A DNA stretch of 23,751 nt from a virus. The notes under the pieces were generated by a model, which saw nothing but the letters and a program-made list of their open reading frames with translations, had not been told where the DNA came from and searched no databases. Both the position numbers and the translations under genes were made by a program. Within the stretch, counting starts at the first letter, position 1; the number at the start of each line of letters is the position of its first letter. Where the stretch lies: the IMG/VR virus record IMGVR_UViG_3300022925_000178, positions 1 through 23,751 of that record. One strand, written 5' to 3'. Below, piece by piece: positions 290 to 23,455 of this stretch.

Positions 290-775
290 TCACTTTGAGC
301 TGTCTTTCATCAACTTCAATAATTCGTTCCTATCGAAAACATGACCCTTAACAGAGTCTTCGTCACCGTTTCCACTATCGTTTCGCACTTTATCTAGTCT
401 AGCTTTCTTAAGCATTAAGTCGATTTGATCTAACTTTCTTTTAGTTTTAGTGTCTTTGGCTTCTAACGCAATCTTAAGCATGTTACTAGCCTCAGCAAAT
501 ATCTTGCCTGCGGCCATATCAGTAGTATTCATGCCTAAATCCATTAGCTGTTGATAGCTGTCAAGTGCTTTTAACGCAACATCGTCCATTTCTGATTCGT
601 GGTCGTCTAGTCCTTTGACATCTTTAAAGGCATCGTTGATTTTTTCTGAAATTGTAAGTGCGTTACTAACAAGCTCAATTTCTTGTCTAGTTTCTTCTAC
701 AGTTTCTTCTTCGAAATCCTCAGTTACATCTTCAATCGGAGGAAGTCCGAAAGTTTCTTCTAATTTCTTAGTAAT
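290..775 (-). CDS. gp16: Terminase small subunit gp16, apparent ATT start
   Basis: T4 gp16 recognises DNA and stimulates the large terminase gp17 during headful packaging. The first ATG of this frame is at 589 and gives only 99 residues. The frame stays open upstream to a TAA at 776-778, the stop of the preceding gene. Starting at the ATT right after that stop (773-775) gives 161 residues, against 164 for T4 gp16. A GGGGGA Shine-Dalgarno lies 7 bases before this ATT, and no ATG, GTG or TTG lies in between. The added N-terminus (KKLEETFGLPPIEDV) resembles the start of T4 gp16 (KLLDISDLPGIDGEE). The central MAAGKIFAEA resembles the T4 DAAKIFLETA segment. An acidic linker precedes a helical, coiled-coil-like core. 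Family call good; start codon is an inference. Confidence 0.72.
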   Translation of the reverse strand: MTKKLEETFGLPPIEDVTEDFEEETVEETRQEIELVSNALTISEKINDAFKDVKGLDDHESEMDDVALKALDSYQQLMDLGMNTTDMAAGKIFAEASNMLKIALEAKDTKTKRKLDQIDLMLKKARLDKVRNDSGNGDEDSVKGHVFDRNELLKLMKDSSK

Positions 776-979
776 TTAAGTATCCCCCACATCAAGGTAA
801 GTTACCTCAATGTTATAAGTGTCGTCGCTTGCGGACATGACCCTATCATATTCTGGGTCTGATGGAGAGATATAGCAATCTTCCGGTGGTGTCGCCTCGC
901 CGTGGGTTTTCTCTGTATTGAGAATTTCTCCGTCAGGAGTAATTGAACAACTGGTGGTGTATTTATACTGTTTCATCAT
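776..979 (-). CDS. Hypothetical 67-residue protein
   Basis: I do not recognise this family. The protein is small and acidic with two cysteines (near residues 11 and 35), no membrane segment and no signal peptide. There are two consecutive ATGs, at 979 and 976. A GATAAATA element at 985-992 ends 5 bases before the first ATG, which puts the expected transcription start on the ATG itself. No Shine-Dalgarno is seen. Its stop codon directly abuts the proposed ATT start of gp16 and it shares gp16's frame. The GGGGGA serving gp16 lies inside its last codons, so the two genes are probably translationally linked. Confidence 0.6.
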   Translation of the reverse strand: MMKQYKYTTSCSITPDGEILNTEKTHGEATPPEDCYISPSDPEYDRVMSASDDTYNIEVTYLDVGDT

Positions 980-984
980 AACAG

Positions 985-992
985 TATTTATC
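985..992 (-). promoter_or_regulatory. T4-type late promoter GATAAATA
   Basis: The minus-strand octamer GATAAATA is one base from the T4 late consensus TATAAATA. It lies 5 bases before the ATG at 979, so the predicted transcript is leaderless. Confidence 0.6.
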
Positions 993-7181: not shown

Positions 7182-7832
7182 TTATACTAATTTAAGGGAA
7201 GGGATAAGAAGTGATTTTTGAATATTCTTAACTTTTTCTTCTAAATCTTCGATGGAGCCGTCATTGTGAATAACGTAGTCTACCGGACTACCTACCCAGT
7301 TCCATTCAGATTCGTGTACATCTTTGTACTTAGTTTTCATAATCTTATGTGCGACTGCGCTATCGTTTGCGTCTTTAGCAGTGTCCCACCATTCAGGTAG
7401 TTCGTTGCGTCTAACCCAAATAACTTTGCCGCCCATGCGGTTAATTAGTTTTAGTTCGTTTTGGAAACGTGCATCACTTATTACTACTGTTTGATCTTTG
7501 TGACTTTTACGAATGCGATATTCCAAACTATCCATCCATAAGTCTTCGTGCCAATGCTTACGTAGGACATCAGTGCCAAGTAGCTGTAATGCAAGGCGGG
7601 GAGTAAAATTTGGAATATCTAATTTTTTTGACCAAAACAAGTCTGGGGTTTCTCGGAATTCTCTGCTTTCAACAGTGTCGCCTTCTAATAAGTCTCGTGG
7701 CCAACCGAATATTGCCGAACACACATCCTTGAGTGGCGCCGCAAAACTATCTGTTGCACAGCCAGCTTCCTCGAACATTCCTGCTACTGTACCTTTTCCA
7801 CTTCCTATTAATCCAACGAGTCCTATTATAAT
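7182..7832 (-). CDS. gp1: Deoxynucleoside monophosphate kinase (gp1-type), apparent ATT start
   Basis: Phosphorylates dNMPs to dNDPs for phage DNA synthesis. The first ATG (7776-7778) would remove the P-loop. The frame continues upstream to an ATT at 7830-7832, giving 216 residues that begin IIIGLVGLIGSGKGTV (read M at position 1), with Walker A GLIGSGKGT at residues 7-15. GGAGG at 7841-7845 lies 8 bases before this ATT, and no ATG, GTG or TTG occurs in frame upstream before a TAA. Other family signs are FTPRLALQLLGTDVLRKHW, VVISDARFQNELKLI and a final VDYVIHNDGSIEDL. T4 gp1 is 241 residues. A consensus sigma70 promoter lies just upstream, fitting an early gene. The enzyme call is strong; the ATT start is inferred from the P-loop and Shine-Dalgarno. 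Confidence 0.82.
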   Translation of the reverse strand: MIIGLVGLIGSGKGTVAGMFEEAGCATDSFAAPLKDVCSAIFGWPRDLLEGDTVESREFRETPDLFWSKKLDIPNFTPRLALQLLGTDVLRKHWHEDLWMDSLEYRIRKSHKDQTVVISDARFQNELKLINRMGGKVIWVRRNELPEWWDTAKDANDSAVAHKIMKTKYKDVHESEWNWVGSPVDYVIHNDGSIEDLEEKVKNIQKSLLIPSLKLV

Positions 7833-7860
7833 GAGACTATCCTCCGAGCATTTATTTTAA

Positions 7861-7888
7861 ATTATAACACTTATTTATGTATTGTCAA
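7861..7888 (-). promoter_or_regulatory. Consensus sigma70 (early) promoter for dNMP kinase
   Basis: On the minus strand TTGACA (7883-7888) and TATAAT (7861-7866) are both perfect and separated by 16 bases. Transcription should start near 7854, giving a leader of about 20 bases with GGAGG before the ATT start of the kinase. Confidence 0.8.
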
Positions 7889-7895
7889 GTATTAT

Positions 7896-7903
7896 GATAA
7901 ATA
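7896..7903 (+). promoter_or_regulatory. T4-type late promoter GATAAATA for homing endonuclease
   Basis: Plus-strand GATAAATA 58 bases before the ATG at 7962. The leader carries AAGGAG. It lies back to back with the minus-strand sigma70 promoter. Confidence 0.6.
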
Positions 7904-7961
7904 AAAGTGTAGATCGCGTGTTGGAGCACCATCTACTCTAATACTAGAAAGGAGTATCAGC

Positions 7962-8783
7962 ATGAGTATTTATAACTCTATCAAAAAACATAAAAGATTT
8001 ACCGACGTATTACCGTACACATATTACATTAAACACATACTGTCTAATACCAAATATTATGGTGTTCGTTGGGCAAATAAAGTAAGTCCACTTAGCGATT
8101 TTGGTATAAAATACCATACCTCCGGCAAGTTCAAGGAAGAATTTAAATATCACCCCGAACGATTCGAGTACAGATTATGCTGGACGTTTGACCACAAAGA
8201 TGATGCTATCTTGTATGAGAACAAAATAATAACAAGAGTATACAGAAAAAACGATTGGGCTAATAATAATGCTTATCCTGCGTTTTATAACCAGTCTGGA
8301 CCAAATACTGGCAACAAAGTAACCGAAGAACAAAAAATACTTAGAAGAAAGCAAATAACCGGACGGAGAGGATTTAATAACGGAAGTAGCAATTTTCTAT
8401 TGTTTCCGAATGACCCAAAAGCAAAATTGCTAGATTCGGGCTATACACAAGCGTTTAAAAATAAAGTAACTGCTTCGGCGAAGAACCGGCCTCCACGGAC
8501 ACAAGAATATAAAGAAAACATGTCAAGAAGTTGTAAGGGAAAGAAAGTATCAGATACTACTAAAGAAAGAATGAAGATTTCTAATAGCCAAGACGCAGTA
8601 GGCAGGTCTTGGTATAATGACGGGGCTAAAAATTATCGGCTAACGCCAGACGATAAAAGACGAAAAGTGTTATCGAAAGGACGGTTGTTATCTGAAAATC
8701 ACAGAGAAAAAATCATAAAGCACAATAAATCAGAAGGGCAAAGACGGGCCGTTAGCGTAGCTAGGACTAGTGCTACCCGATAA
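7962..8783 (+). CDS. Free-standing GIY-YIG homing endonuclease
   Basis: A 273-residue protein. Residues 18-95 carry a GIY-YIG-type nuclease domain of the kind common in phages: PYTYYIKHI (18-25), KYYGVRWANK (31-40) and a candidate catalytic Glu86 in LYENKII. The C-terminal half is basic and has two copies of a DNA-binding-like motif: GRRGFNNGSSNFLLFPND (134-151) and GRSWYNDGAKNYRLTPDD (214-231). NUMOD3-like helices sit between and around them (NKVTEEQKILRRKQITG; GKKVSDTTKERMKISNS). Such enzymes cut DNA at gene-specific sites and spread themselves. It is opposite in strand to its neighbours and its last 11 bases overlap the 3' end of gp13, as expected of an inserted selfish gene. AAGGAG lies 7 bases before ATG. 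Confidence 0.78.
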   Translation: MSIYNSIKKHKRFTDVLPYTYYIKHILSNTKYYGVRWANKVSPLSDFGIKYHTSGKFKEEFKYHPERFEYRLCWTFDHKDDAILYENKIITRVYRKNDWANNNAYPAFYNQSGPNTGNKVTEEQKILRRKQITGRRGFNNGSSNFLLFPNDPKAKLLDSGYTQAFKNKVTASAKNRPPRTQEYKENMSRSCKGKKVSDTTKERMKISNSQDAVGRSWYNDGAKNYRLTPDDKRRKVLSKGRLLSENHREKIIKHNKSEGQRRAVSVARTSATR

Positions 8784-9534
8784 TGAAGCCGAGTGGGAAA
8801 TTGCCCTCTTCCATGTTGTGTACTTGTTCCTTAAGTGCTTCCAGTTCTGCAACGGCTTCTGCTTTTAGAGCTTCACCATTAAGTTGGATATTTCCGCCTG
8901 CGCCGGGTAATCCGCTTTGGTACTTGCTACGTGCTTCGCCGAGCATATACTTAGACATTGCCAATGAGTAATTAGCTAACCAAGGATTAGCATAAACATC
9001 TCTCAACAAAACACTCTCAGGGATGAAATTGTTTACTACTGCTAACACTTCTTCTGTATGTCTTATATTTCTAAGTATTTTTAACTTCTTAGTATTTCTA
9101 TTCCAGTTAAAGTCGTATTCGCTACCGAATATTCTACTAATTGTTTCTTTGTACTGCGCAAATGCGTCAAATACCGCAAGACCACCAATCTGGCCTGCCT
9201 GAAGCATGTACATATTGTTAAATGCTACATCAAATGGATCGAAGTTTGTACCGCCGCCACTGTTAGTGCCGATGCCTCGTCTGTAAAGACGCTGTACTTC
9301 CATAACCTCATCCGGAAAGGTGTATTCTGTTACACCTGCAATAGTGCTAAAAAATACTACACTTTCCTCAGTGCTACCGCTACTGGTTTGCCTGTAGACT
9401 GCTAATGCTTTATCAATAGCAACATCGTAATGTTGTCGGTCCAGTTCAACGTCTACCATATCGTCGGCTAACCGCAATCGTAATTCTTTAATAAGTTCTT
9501 CTCGGCTTAAGTAGCCGATCTGATTAATAGGCAT
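8773..9534 (-). CDS. gp13: Neck protein gp13 (head closure)
   Basis: A 253-residue protein (T4 gp13 is 309). gp13 and gp14 close the packaged head and form the platform for tail joining. The N-terminal helical pattern REELIKELRLRLADDMVDVELD followed by HYDVAIDKALAVYRQ is typical of head-closure proteins of marine T4-like phages. So are EYTFPDEVMEVQRLYRRGIG and the helical C-terminal YSLAMSKYMLGEARSKY. The start is supported by GGAGAAA before ATG and a GATAAATA late promoter at 9559-9566 that overlaps the stop of the previous gene. Its partner gp14 is encoded 1.5 kb away on the opposite strand, an unusual split of a normally adjacent pair. gp13 rather than another connector protein is likely but not certain. 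Confidence 0.75.
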   Translation of the reverse strand: MPINQIGYLSREELIKELRLRLADDMVDVELDRQHYDVAIDKALAVYRQTSSGSTEESVVFFSTIAGVTEYTFPDEVMEVQRLYRRGIGTNSGGGTNFDPFDVAFNNMYMLQAGQIGGLAVFDAFAQYKETISRIFGSEYDFNWNRNTKKLKILRNIRHTEEVLAVVNNFIPESVLLRDVYANPWLANYSLAMSKYMLGEARSKYQSGLPGAGGNIQLNGEALKAEAVAELEALKEQVHNMEEGNFPLGFIIG

Positions 9535-9558
9535 GTAGTTTCTCCAAATACTTTACAG

Positions 9559-22000: not shown

Positions 22001-22409
22001 TTCTTATATGCCACATTGCCACTAAATAAGCAGAATAAGAATACATTGTTGTATCCTCGTCGGTTGGTATCTCTACAATATTAGCTGGTGTCTTATCTCC
22101 TAAATGGTCTTTCATTAAGTGTGTATTGTTTGGGCCGAATACAAGGATACAATCCTCTGGCGCGTTAAAATCTTGTAATTGTAAATCAGGTGTAAAATTT
22201 CGCGCATTTTTCGGAGCAAATACATATATCGGAAAGTCTTCTGTTACTTCGGACATATCAGCTATATGCGGTGCATCTTTTAATTTTTTACTAGCATCGC
22301 ATTTATACCCACTCATTACATATACTTTGTCCGACTTAAAATGAGATAACGCATAATCAAAATAGTTCTCATCTTCGTATGAGTCGGCACATAATACAGT
22401 TACAATCAT
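21993..22409 (-). CDS. SpoU/TrmL-like (SPOUT) methyltransferase candidate
   Basis: A 138-residue protein, near the size of the smallest SPOUT enzymes such as E. coli TrmL (157 residues), which 2'-O-methylates tRNA wobble bases. The C-terminal half follows TrmL in order and spacing: DCILVFGPNNTHL (87-98) where TrmL has DYLMFGPETRGL, then VEIPTDEDTTMYSYSAYLVA (112-131) where TrmL has IPM...S-N-L-S-N-A-V. The knot region therefore seems present. But the N-terminal NTGN motif is not seen, the Glu of FGPE is Asn, and the SxNxSN motif is degraded, so activity is doubtful. GGAGAAAG precedes ATG; the ATG overlaps the stop of the sulfotransferase-like gene (TAATG). Confidence 0.45.
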   Translation of the reverse strand: MIVTVLCADSYEDENYFDYALSHFKSDKVYVMSGYKCDASKKLKDAPHIADMSEVTEDFPIYVFAPKNARNFTPDLQLQDFNAPEDCILVFGPNNTHLMKDHLGDKTPANIVEIPTDEDTTMYSYSAYLVAMWHIRNG

Positions 22410-22900
22410 TATTTACTTTCTCCATTAAAAAGTTGATTAAATTCTTCAACTGTTAATTCATCGTTGTTGTCAATTATATAATTATATGTTTCTAATTCTT
22501 TTTCTAGCTCACCGTTGGTGTACACATCAGCCCATTTGTCCTCACCTTTCGATTCTTCTTCTTCATACTCAAAATATTTATATAGATTTTCGAATAATAT
22601 ATATCGAACTGCTTTATGCGCAAAATGGTCTAAGTAAGGCGCTGTGTGTTGCTCGACATATGGTCCTGTTACATTGTTTCCGTCATATAAAAATCTCATG
22701 CCAGATTCGTATCGGGCTTGCGGGTTTCTAAGAATAACTACTAAACTTTGATAGCTGTCTATAGTTGAAATAGCAGTTTCGTATTGGTACCCGCTACAAG
22801 CAATTCGATGTTTGCTACAAAAATCTCTAAGGGAATTATTACCGGCTTGTGGTACAGTTATAAGTAACGCGCCATTATGTTGTGCTATTGTGTATTTCAT
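22409..22900 (-). CDS. Sulfotransferase-like protein A (163 residues)
   Basis: Both PAPS-binding signatures of sulfotransferases can be seen. The 5' loop is LLITVPQAGNNSLRDFC (12-28; compare PKxGTxSL). The 3' phosphate motif is VVILRNPQARYESGMRFL (54-71), with Arg58 and Ser66 in the expected R-(D/N)-P-x-x-R-x-x-S-G order. The protein is shorter than typical sulfotransferases (usually 200-300 residues), so the acceptor part is reduced. The C-terminal YTNGELEKELETYNYIID and LTVEEFNQLFN match the next gene's C-terminus, so the two are paralogues. A GATAAATA lies 6 bases before ATG with no Shine-Dalgarno. Acceptor unknown. Confidence 0.7.
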   Translation of the reverse strand: MKYTIAQHNGALLITVPQAGNNSLRDFCSKHRIACSGYQYETAISTIDSYQSLVVILRNPQARYESGMRFLYDGNNVTGPYVEQHTAPYLDHFAHKAVRYILFENLYKYFEYEEEESKGEDKWADVYTNGELEKELETYNYIIDNNDELTVEEFNQLFNGESK

Positions 22901-22901
22901 A

Positions 22902-23441
22902 TTAAGTATTTATCACTTTAAAATTGTCGAGTATTTCATCAAATTCCTCAAGCGTTAGACATGATGTATGTTGTATAATGCGATTACATGCTTCTAATTC
23001 GTTCTCTAATTCGTTATTTGTATATGGGTTGTGTATTTCCGGCATTTCGTCGTATAATACAGTTGCGTGACCTGCTCTCGGGAAAAATATAGGCATATCT
23101 ACCCAAGCAATATATTTGGTAATATATTTTTCTATTGGGCTTAGATAGGGATAAGTGTGCGTTATAATATGCACGTTGTCTAATAAATTTTCAGTAGGTA
23201 GACGATTGATTCTATTTAATATTTTTATACCCGATTCATATCTATCAATTGGGTCTCTTAATATTACAATTACGTCTTTTGCTTTTTTAAATTCTAATAT
23301 TGCATCCGCAGTTGAATATGCTCCGCGATTTGTTGTCTTATCATCGAAGAATTTATTGAATGAATGTGAACCGACACGATATGTTGTTACGAATATTGTT
23401 TGGTCTAAATTTGCTAATAGGTATTGTAAGTTTGTGTCCAT
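22902..23441 (-). CDS. Sulfotransferase-like protein B (179 residues)
   Basis: Paralogue of the following gene. The 5' PAPS loop is TYRVGSHSFNKFF (20-32, RxGSxS type) and the 3' phosphate motif is IVILRDPIDRYESGIKIL (57-74) with Arg62, Arg67 and Ser70. The C-terminus (YTNNELENELEACNRIIQ; LTLEEFDEIL) is shared with protein A. A small segment of about 25 residues around DMPIFFPRAGHATVLYDE is specific to this copy. The ATG lies 6 bases after AATAAATA, which follows the terminator at 23460-23485, so it begins its own transcription unit. It is flanked by fibre-type genes, so a virion or host-surface glycan is a conceivable substrate, but this is inference. Confidence 0.72.
   Translation of the reverse strand: MDTNLQYLLANLDQTIFVTTYRVGSHSFNKFFDDKTTNRGAYSTADAILEFKKAKDVIVILRDPIDRYESGIKILNRINRLPTENLLDNVHIITHTYPYLSPIEKYITKYIAWVDMPIFFPRAGHATVLYDEMPEIHNPYTNNELENELEACNRIIQHTSCLTLEEFDEILDNFKVINT
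22907..22914 (-). promoter_or_regulatory. T4-type late promoter GATAAATA
   Basis: Minus-strand GATAAATA within the last codons of sulfotransferase-like protein B, 6 bases before the ATG of protein A. Confidence 0.6.
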
Positions 23442-23447
23442 GTGTTG

Positions 23448-23455
23448 TATTTATT
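23448..23455 (-). promoter_or_regulatory. Late-promoter variant AATAAATA
   Basis: Minus-strand GAATAAATA just after the terminator and 6 bases before the ATG at 23441. Confidence 0.5.

Follow-up and report, generated by a model that had tools for sequence, protein, structure and literature searches.

Apparent AUU start codons beside homing endonuclease insertions in a phage dNMP kinase gene and the TKKLEE gene family

Where does translation of a conserved gene begin if no conventional start codon in its open frame would preserve the P-loop? This question is raised by a dNMP kinase gene in a 23,751-nt stretch of viral DNA (positions 1 to 23,751 of IMG/VR record IMGVR_UViG_3300022925_000178), referred to here as the window. 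An 89,367-bp IMG/VR contig (G001) contains the window with 100% identity and was used for genome-scale tests; in a megablast search of GenBank phages, a 6-kb portion of the window gave no match. The material consists of metagenomic contigs and the account is one of sequence inference throughout. At 22409-23450 (minus strand), the window also encodes two adjacent small proteins with stretches in common, for example 'VVILR[ND]P..RYESG'. Their appearance is that of sulfotransferase-like paralogues; no family matched them convincingly.

The start of the kinase gene

The kinase gene and its immediate start region comprise the following features.

7182..7832, minus strand: dNMP kinase CDS of 216 aa when read from ATT, assigned by phrog_139 and Pfam matches and by its conserved N-terminus
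7830..7832, minus strand: ATT start codon, in the column of the homologues' ATG
7841..7845, minus strand: Shine-Dalgarno sequence (SD) GGAGG, at a spacing of 8 nt to the ATT
7837..7851, minus strand: mini-ORF ATG CTC GGA GGA TAG, read from the sequence

The open frame (7856-7182, minus strand) matches the phrog_139 profile at 4.8e-49 and Pfam PF21448 at 3.2e-15. It is closed above by an in-frame TAA at 7859-7857, and no in-frame ATG, GTG or TTG lies between this stop and the ATT. The first such codon in the frame is the ATG at 7778-7776, and a protein starting there loses the P-loop GLIGSGKGT, which is retained only in the reading from ATT. The GGAGG (7845-7841) and the ATT (7832-7830) are separated by the 8 nt ATAGTCTC. 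A sequence-only reading of this DNA had proposed that the kinase starts at ATT behind an SD, that the first ATG would delete the Walker A loop and that a TAA blocks the frame further up; each of these points stands.

The evidence that carries the assignment is comparative. Kinase homologues conserve the N-terminus MIIG.xGxIGSGK, and in an initial comparison with 11 close homologues ATG occupies the column of the ATT in 10, the eleventh (L015) having its ATG a few codons upstream. A wider census of 80 contigs found ATG in the same column in 67, one codon earlier in 11, and ATT in 2, both of them copies of this phage. Codons 1-18 differ from those of relatives at 8-14 third positions against 3-7 first and second positions taken together, and because the differences fall mainly at third positions this segment is under coding constraint. 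On such evidence the kinase really appears to start at ATT, and the two ATA codons that follow could also be the starts. The case is made by homology and not by the motif, since SD-then-ATT sites are not in themselves enriched: the 89-kb sister contig contains 50, against 70 +/- 11 expected by chance. The kinase SD, at -9.5 kcal/mol, is the strongest among the 54 genes of this phage that were audited. It is contained in the mini-ORF, which ends 4 nt before the ATT; the predicted transcript start, near 7854, is only 2-4 nt away from this mini-ORF. A role of this mini-ORF in coupling or occlusion at the kinase start is possible. RNA folding of the leaders of both ATT starts in the window (that of the kinase and a second one described below) gave nothing beyond shuffles, and an Rfam search gave no match.

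An insertion at the neck/kinase junction

Upstream of the ATT, the window has an arrangement that differs from that of most relatives.

7861..7888, minus strand: sigma70-type promoter TTGACA-N16-TATAAT of the kinase, a perfect match, predicted to be active
7895..7964, plus strand: endonuclease leader with a late-type TAAATA, a hairpin and a second hairpin with an SD in its loop, shared with other endonucleases
7962..8783, plus strand: homing endonuclease gene (phrog_314, 1.2e-07), head-to-head with the kinase and filling the neck/kinase junction
8773..9552, minus strand: neck/head-tail adaptor gene, the upstream neighbour, given as a stop-to-stop frame (phrog_211, 1.6e-29)

In most relatives there is no gap between the neck gene and the kinase ATG, the two being adjacent or overlapping, and this ATG has no strong SD (median -4.0 kcal/mol). 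In the phage of the window, about 930 bp with a homing endonuclease on the opposite strand part the two genes. The endonuclease gene has no Pfam match and was not found in 7 other kinase-bearing contigs searched; the junction is closed in most relatives, so that the insertion site is polymorphic for presence and absence. We regard 7962-8783 as a candidate free-standing homing endonuclease with putative cleavage and homing activity. Where the junction carries inserts without a strong SD (L074, L098), the kinase keeps ATG.

The combination of the strongest SD and a perfect sigma70-type promoter suggests that the kinase, formerly expressed by late read-through, is now probably transcribed from an early promoter. 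Perfect promoters of this kind (TTGACA-N16/17-TATAAT) occur five times in the 89-kb contig against 0.13 expected, all on the coding strand. The other four are located at 38756, 56035, 66545 and 88050 (plus strand).

The leader of the endonuclease is common to the HNH-type endonucleases of three other loci (L231:3427-3502, L300:3172-3246 and L319:3222-3302). In the alignment, which has only 4 sequences, 11 pairs are 100% paired, with changes on both sides at 4 pairs. This leader links the kinase-side endonuclease with the endonucleases found at the second ATT-start gene family. As an observation in its own right, homing endonucleases of two nuclease families have a 5´ leader in common, composed of a late promoter and two hairpins with covariation; the second of these hairpins, whose loop holds the SD, is reminiscent of the RBS hairpins of T4 I-TevI and SegB.

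A scan for kinases with ATH starts found one further lineage (L406/L413). Here, an in-frame TAA is followed by an ATC start with the SD CAGGAG, and a phrog_655 homing endonuclease is placed head-to-head with the kinase, 25 nt away. A second homing endonuclease, at L406:1943-2695, lies on the other side, such that the ATC-start kinase is flanked by two. The kinase evidence for an insertion model comes from these two lineages only.

Recurrent ATT starts in the TKKLEE family

The sequence-only reading had also mentioned a second independent ATT start in the window. It is present at 775-773 (minus strand) in a gene of the phrog_16202 family, here called TKKLEE, and homologues again have ATG in that column (15 contigs), so that its support equals that of the kinase start.

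290..775, minus strand: second ATT-start gene, phrog_16202 (TKKLEE) family, profile match 7.3e-07
773..775, minus strand: ATT start codon, directly after the TAA of an inserted ORF
784..788, minus strand: SD GGGGG, spacing 8 nt, -8.4 kcal/mol, inside the inserted ORF
776..979, minus strand: inserted 67-aa ORF, beginning in the sequence TAAATA CTGTT ATG
985..990, minus strand: late-type -10 element TAAATA, placed 5 nt ahead of the ATG that opens the 67-aa ORF

The 67-aa ORF uses the late promoter and ATG that belong to the TKKLEE gene in relatives, and its end supplies the GGGGG and the TAA/ATT junction of the TKKLEE start. Judging from the sequence, the overlapping upstream frame does not account for the ATT, since an ATG in its place would leave the stop of that frame unchanged. 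DNA inserted immediately upstream is a feature common to the kinase and TKKLEE genes of the window. The 67-aa ORF has no relative in 9 related contigs and no Pfam match, and it counts against an insertion model that the element displacing this particular start is not recognisable as an endonuclease. The phrog_16202 assignment holds in 30/30 family members. An AlphaFold model of TKKLEE (pLDDT 62) is a long helical hairpin with no significant Foldseek match; identity with the T4 gp16 small terminase was considered but is not supported (hhalign probability 0.4%; PHROG terminase match in 1/30 members, at E 0.098).

A pattern scan (ATH-TKKLEE-x-F) over all IMG/VR contigs plus homology searches gave 169 distinct TKKLEE loci, of which 149 start with ATG, 19 with ATT and 1 with ATC; GTG, TTG and ATA do not occur among them. 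The GenBank phage set yielded no isolate whose TKKLEE gene starts with ATT, and isolates such as the PA5oct-like Pseudomonas phages have ATG. The two types differ in their start context. An SD of -6 kcal/mol or stronger precedes 20/20 ATT/ATC starts and 6/149 ATG starts, and a TAAATA located 3-12 nt before the start is found at 0/20 and 106/149, respectively. The commonest arrangement in ATG-type relatives has the TAAATA at exactly 5 nt (73/149). Because the TAAATA lies about 5 nt before the ATG and an SD is typically absent, late mRNAs of ATG-type TKKLEE genes are predicted to be leaderless. The same spacing of TAAATA is over-represented in most of six contigs inspected (G001, G009 and G016-G019), which predicts many leaderless late mRNAs in these T4-like phages.

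In a tree of 166 TKKLEE proteins, nine start-codon changes are needed and nine are forced by well-supported branches. Across nine independent contrasts, a strong SD accompanies ATT in about 9/9 (p 0.004); the change to ATT is likewise coupled to loss of the abutting TAAATA (p 0.016). Repeated mutation is one possible origin of this pattern, and a cassette passed on by horizontal transfer could be another.

The gene next to the start differs as well. ATG loci usually have an adjacent head-closure gene (gp4-like), whereas a homing endonuclease or its remnant lies directly upstream in 14/20 ATT/ATC loci, against 2/149 of those with ATG (Fisher p 4e-14). Of the contrasts on the tree, 5.5/9 show the association and none the opposite (p 0.03). 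Endonuclease matches in L279, L280 and L282 were left out, as head closure lies 11-14 nt from the start and leaves no room. An initial interpretation of the gene upstream of ATT starts as a head-closure gene with an extended tail was abandoned when reading of the ORFs showed a homing endonuclease. The endonucleases belong to phrog_655 (HNH) and phrog_314, and several members of both families end in the tail GKTWKLxxGKRVW followed by an SD. In five loci (L262, L249, L252, L207 and L233) the invader uses the resident promoter and ATG, its own start (ATGAC or ATG) being at the TAAATA-Nx-ATG position of uninvaded relatives. In L265 and L289, a left duplicate reading MTKKLEV* precedes the endonuclease and the ATT-TKK copy stands at its right. 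Decayed endonucleases in L207, L252 and L242 have kept the tail, the SD and the ATT. Those of L207 and L252 are miniature genes, in which an internal deletion joins the N-terminal LGKT to the C-terminal GKTW with the SD and downstream ATT intact. Five further loci (L243, L254, L268, L331 and L343) have SD and ATT without an endonuclease; they presumably once had one and may be scars of earlier insertion. One locus, L354, is a counter-example, with an endonuclease present, ATG retained and no SD.

Start replacement by insertion and its alternatives

Start replacement by insertion is the best supported reading of these observations. We consider it likely that the kinase uses AUU because insertion of a homing endonuclease severed its former start context, and that the same has happened repeatedly at the TKKLEE start. 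At the kinase, the insertion would have separated off the neck gene, leaving ATT in the former ATG column behind a strong SD and a sigma70-type promoter. At TKKLEE, invaders, mostly homing endonucleases of the two nuclease families, would insert at the start codon itself, and in several cases the invader takes over the resident late promoter and AUG. For its new start, the resident gene would rely on AUU plus an SD that lies in the 3´ end of the invader or directly behind it, with translation initiating at the ATT or ATC and with the cassette probably bringing SD and ATT along. AUU is expected to need an SD, so the resident would depend on invader-supplied sequence, and this dependence should favour keeping that end of the element. 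The two genes do not share one geometry: the kinase-side endonuclease is on the opposite strand, and capture of the AUG as in TKKLEE is impossible there. One intriguing extension is that mobile homing cassettes specialise in start codons, capturing promoter and AUG and handing the gene an SD and AUU from their own 3´ end, with lasting dependence as the outcome. We put this forward tentatively and would sooner doubt it than assert it. If true, it would amount to an addiction device at translation initiation that persists after nuclease decay.

Other explanations address either the reality of the ATT starts or the reason for AUU. The sequence-only reading suggested that the phage tolerates or makes use of AUU initiation, perhaps through a changed initiation factor of phage or host. 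Relaxed start-codon selection in phage or host, by a changed IF3 or similar, would account for two ATT starts in one contig, but ATT is gene-specific in every contig audited. Among 54 supported genes of the 89-kb contig, a homologue-based audit found only the kinase and TKKLEE to start with ATT; a blind whole-contig audit found the same number, two, in this contig. Three contigs (199, 177 and 145 kb) had a single ATT start, in TKKLEE every time, and two control contigs of ATG type (180 and 102 kb) had none. No IF3 family member was found in eight contigs, which may be incomplete, and the 89-kb contig contains no tRNA genes. We consider general tolerance very improbable. Still less credible is an assembly or sequencing error or a pseudogene; the same reading had judged sequencing error a poor explanation. 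The contigs are metagenomic and there is no isolate, but the same kinase sequence is present in four assemblies, namely that of the window and three further ones from IMG/VR (L002, L003 and L016), which are near-identical and possibly from one sampling site. Moreover, ATT recurs in about 20 other contigs and the N-terminus is under coding constraint. An ATG at the aligned site of homologues had been proposed as a sign of assembly error. This sign fails here: the homologues carry that ATG, but further assemblies reproduce the ATT and ATT starts are found again in different phages. Mismatches in L002 were at one point taken for strain variation, an idea that was dropped because they are confined to the last ~65 bp near its contig end and are not independent evidence of a diverged strain.

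As to why the codon is AUU, an expression throttle has close to an even chance of being correct and is compatible with start replacement by insertion. By this account, AUU is selected since TKKLEE and the kinase must be made in small amounts: uninvaded genes are kept low by an AUG without a strong SD (leaderless or coupled), and once they acquire a strong SD, a change to AUU brings initiation back to its low level. A well-placed SD of at least 5 exact bases is indeed absent in 146/149 ATG loci of TKKLEE and present in 14/19 ATT loci, whereas strong SDs with ATG are common in other genes of the same phages (16/31 in G001, for example). ATT also persists across deep divergence though one transversion would restore ATG, the milder steps GTG and TTG are never taken among the TKKLEE loci, and low-expression cases exist among known AUU genes (pcnB, as cited in PMC13009471). 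The strength of the SD may instead compensate for a damaged start. This is the essence of a damage-and-repair account, in which the insertion removed the ATG and any near-cognate codon behind a strong SD offered the fastest repair, with no function for AUU itself. Insertions adjoin both kinase cases, and stronger SDs are associated with bacterial non-AUG starts (PMC5622118). Rescue by chance should, however, have yielded ATA, the easiest point-change product of ATG (a transition), as well as GTG or TTG, and none is seen; ATT accounts for 19/20 and is kept within long-diverged ATT clades. This persistence, with ATA, GTG and TTG all lacking, speaks more for selection than for damage, and we find damage and repair unlikely. 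More doubtful still is that ATT, still read as Met, is an immunity mark. The endonuclease target would then span the conserved start sequence ATG-ACN-AAR, and in the invaded allele ATT would block recleavage or recombination with the left duplicate. Insertion at ATGAC agrees with this, as do L265 and L289, where the left duplicate has ATG and the right copy ATT, but insertion alone should split the target site, and the kinase case differs in geometry.

Start replacement by insertion has partial precedents. The E. coli gene infC starts at AUU. An AUU start is also cited for E. coli pcnB (Binns and Masters 2002, cited in PMC13009471). As in these genes, the phage starts would be near-cognate AUU codons preceded by an SD, codons against which IF3 should discriminate and which should hold expression down; infC and pcnB are single fixed genes, whereas in the phages one gene family has acquired AUU repeatedly, in connection with insertions. 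In S. aureus, cvfC1 (AUU) and ccpN (AUA) combine a non-canonical start with a strong extended SD, as here, and ribosome profiling and reporters gave a lower yield than with AUG (PMC13009471). Those starts are measured and involve no mobile element. A survey of start-codon switches in prokaryotes found that non-AUG starts tend to have stronger SDs, that leaderless mRNAs need AUG, and that AUG-to-AUU switches number 1 in 61,358 ancestral AUG starts (PMC5622118); the survey genomes are closely related, and the rate is not directly comparable with the at least nine changes in the TKKLEE family. Free-standing homing endonucleases of T4-like phages (seg/mob) insert beside conserved genes, use resident promoters, have leaders with RBS hairpins and harbour, within their own coding sequence, promoters of the gene downstream, a feature that favours their retention (PMC2988022). 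The elements described here share the insertion beside a conserved gene, the use of resident promoters and the hairpin leaders. They differ in that the invader carries the downstream SD, that the resident start becomes AUU or AUC and that insertion is at the start codon itself. In the open literature, with most subscription papers outside the search, we found no description of endonuclease-associated AUU starts.

AUU starts are treated as rare curiosities. If our reading is right, a common class of mobile elements creates them repeatedly, and the phages studied here show how a selfish gene can settle at the start of a conserved gene and leave the latter functional. It would also explain N-terminal truncations in automated phage annotation, here the loss of the kinase P-loop. 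The uninvaded, invaded and decayed loci would then form a natural, replicated series for study of the trade-off between start codon and SD.
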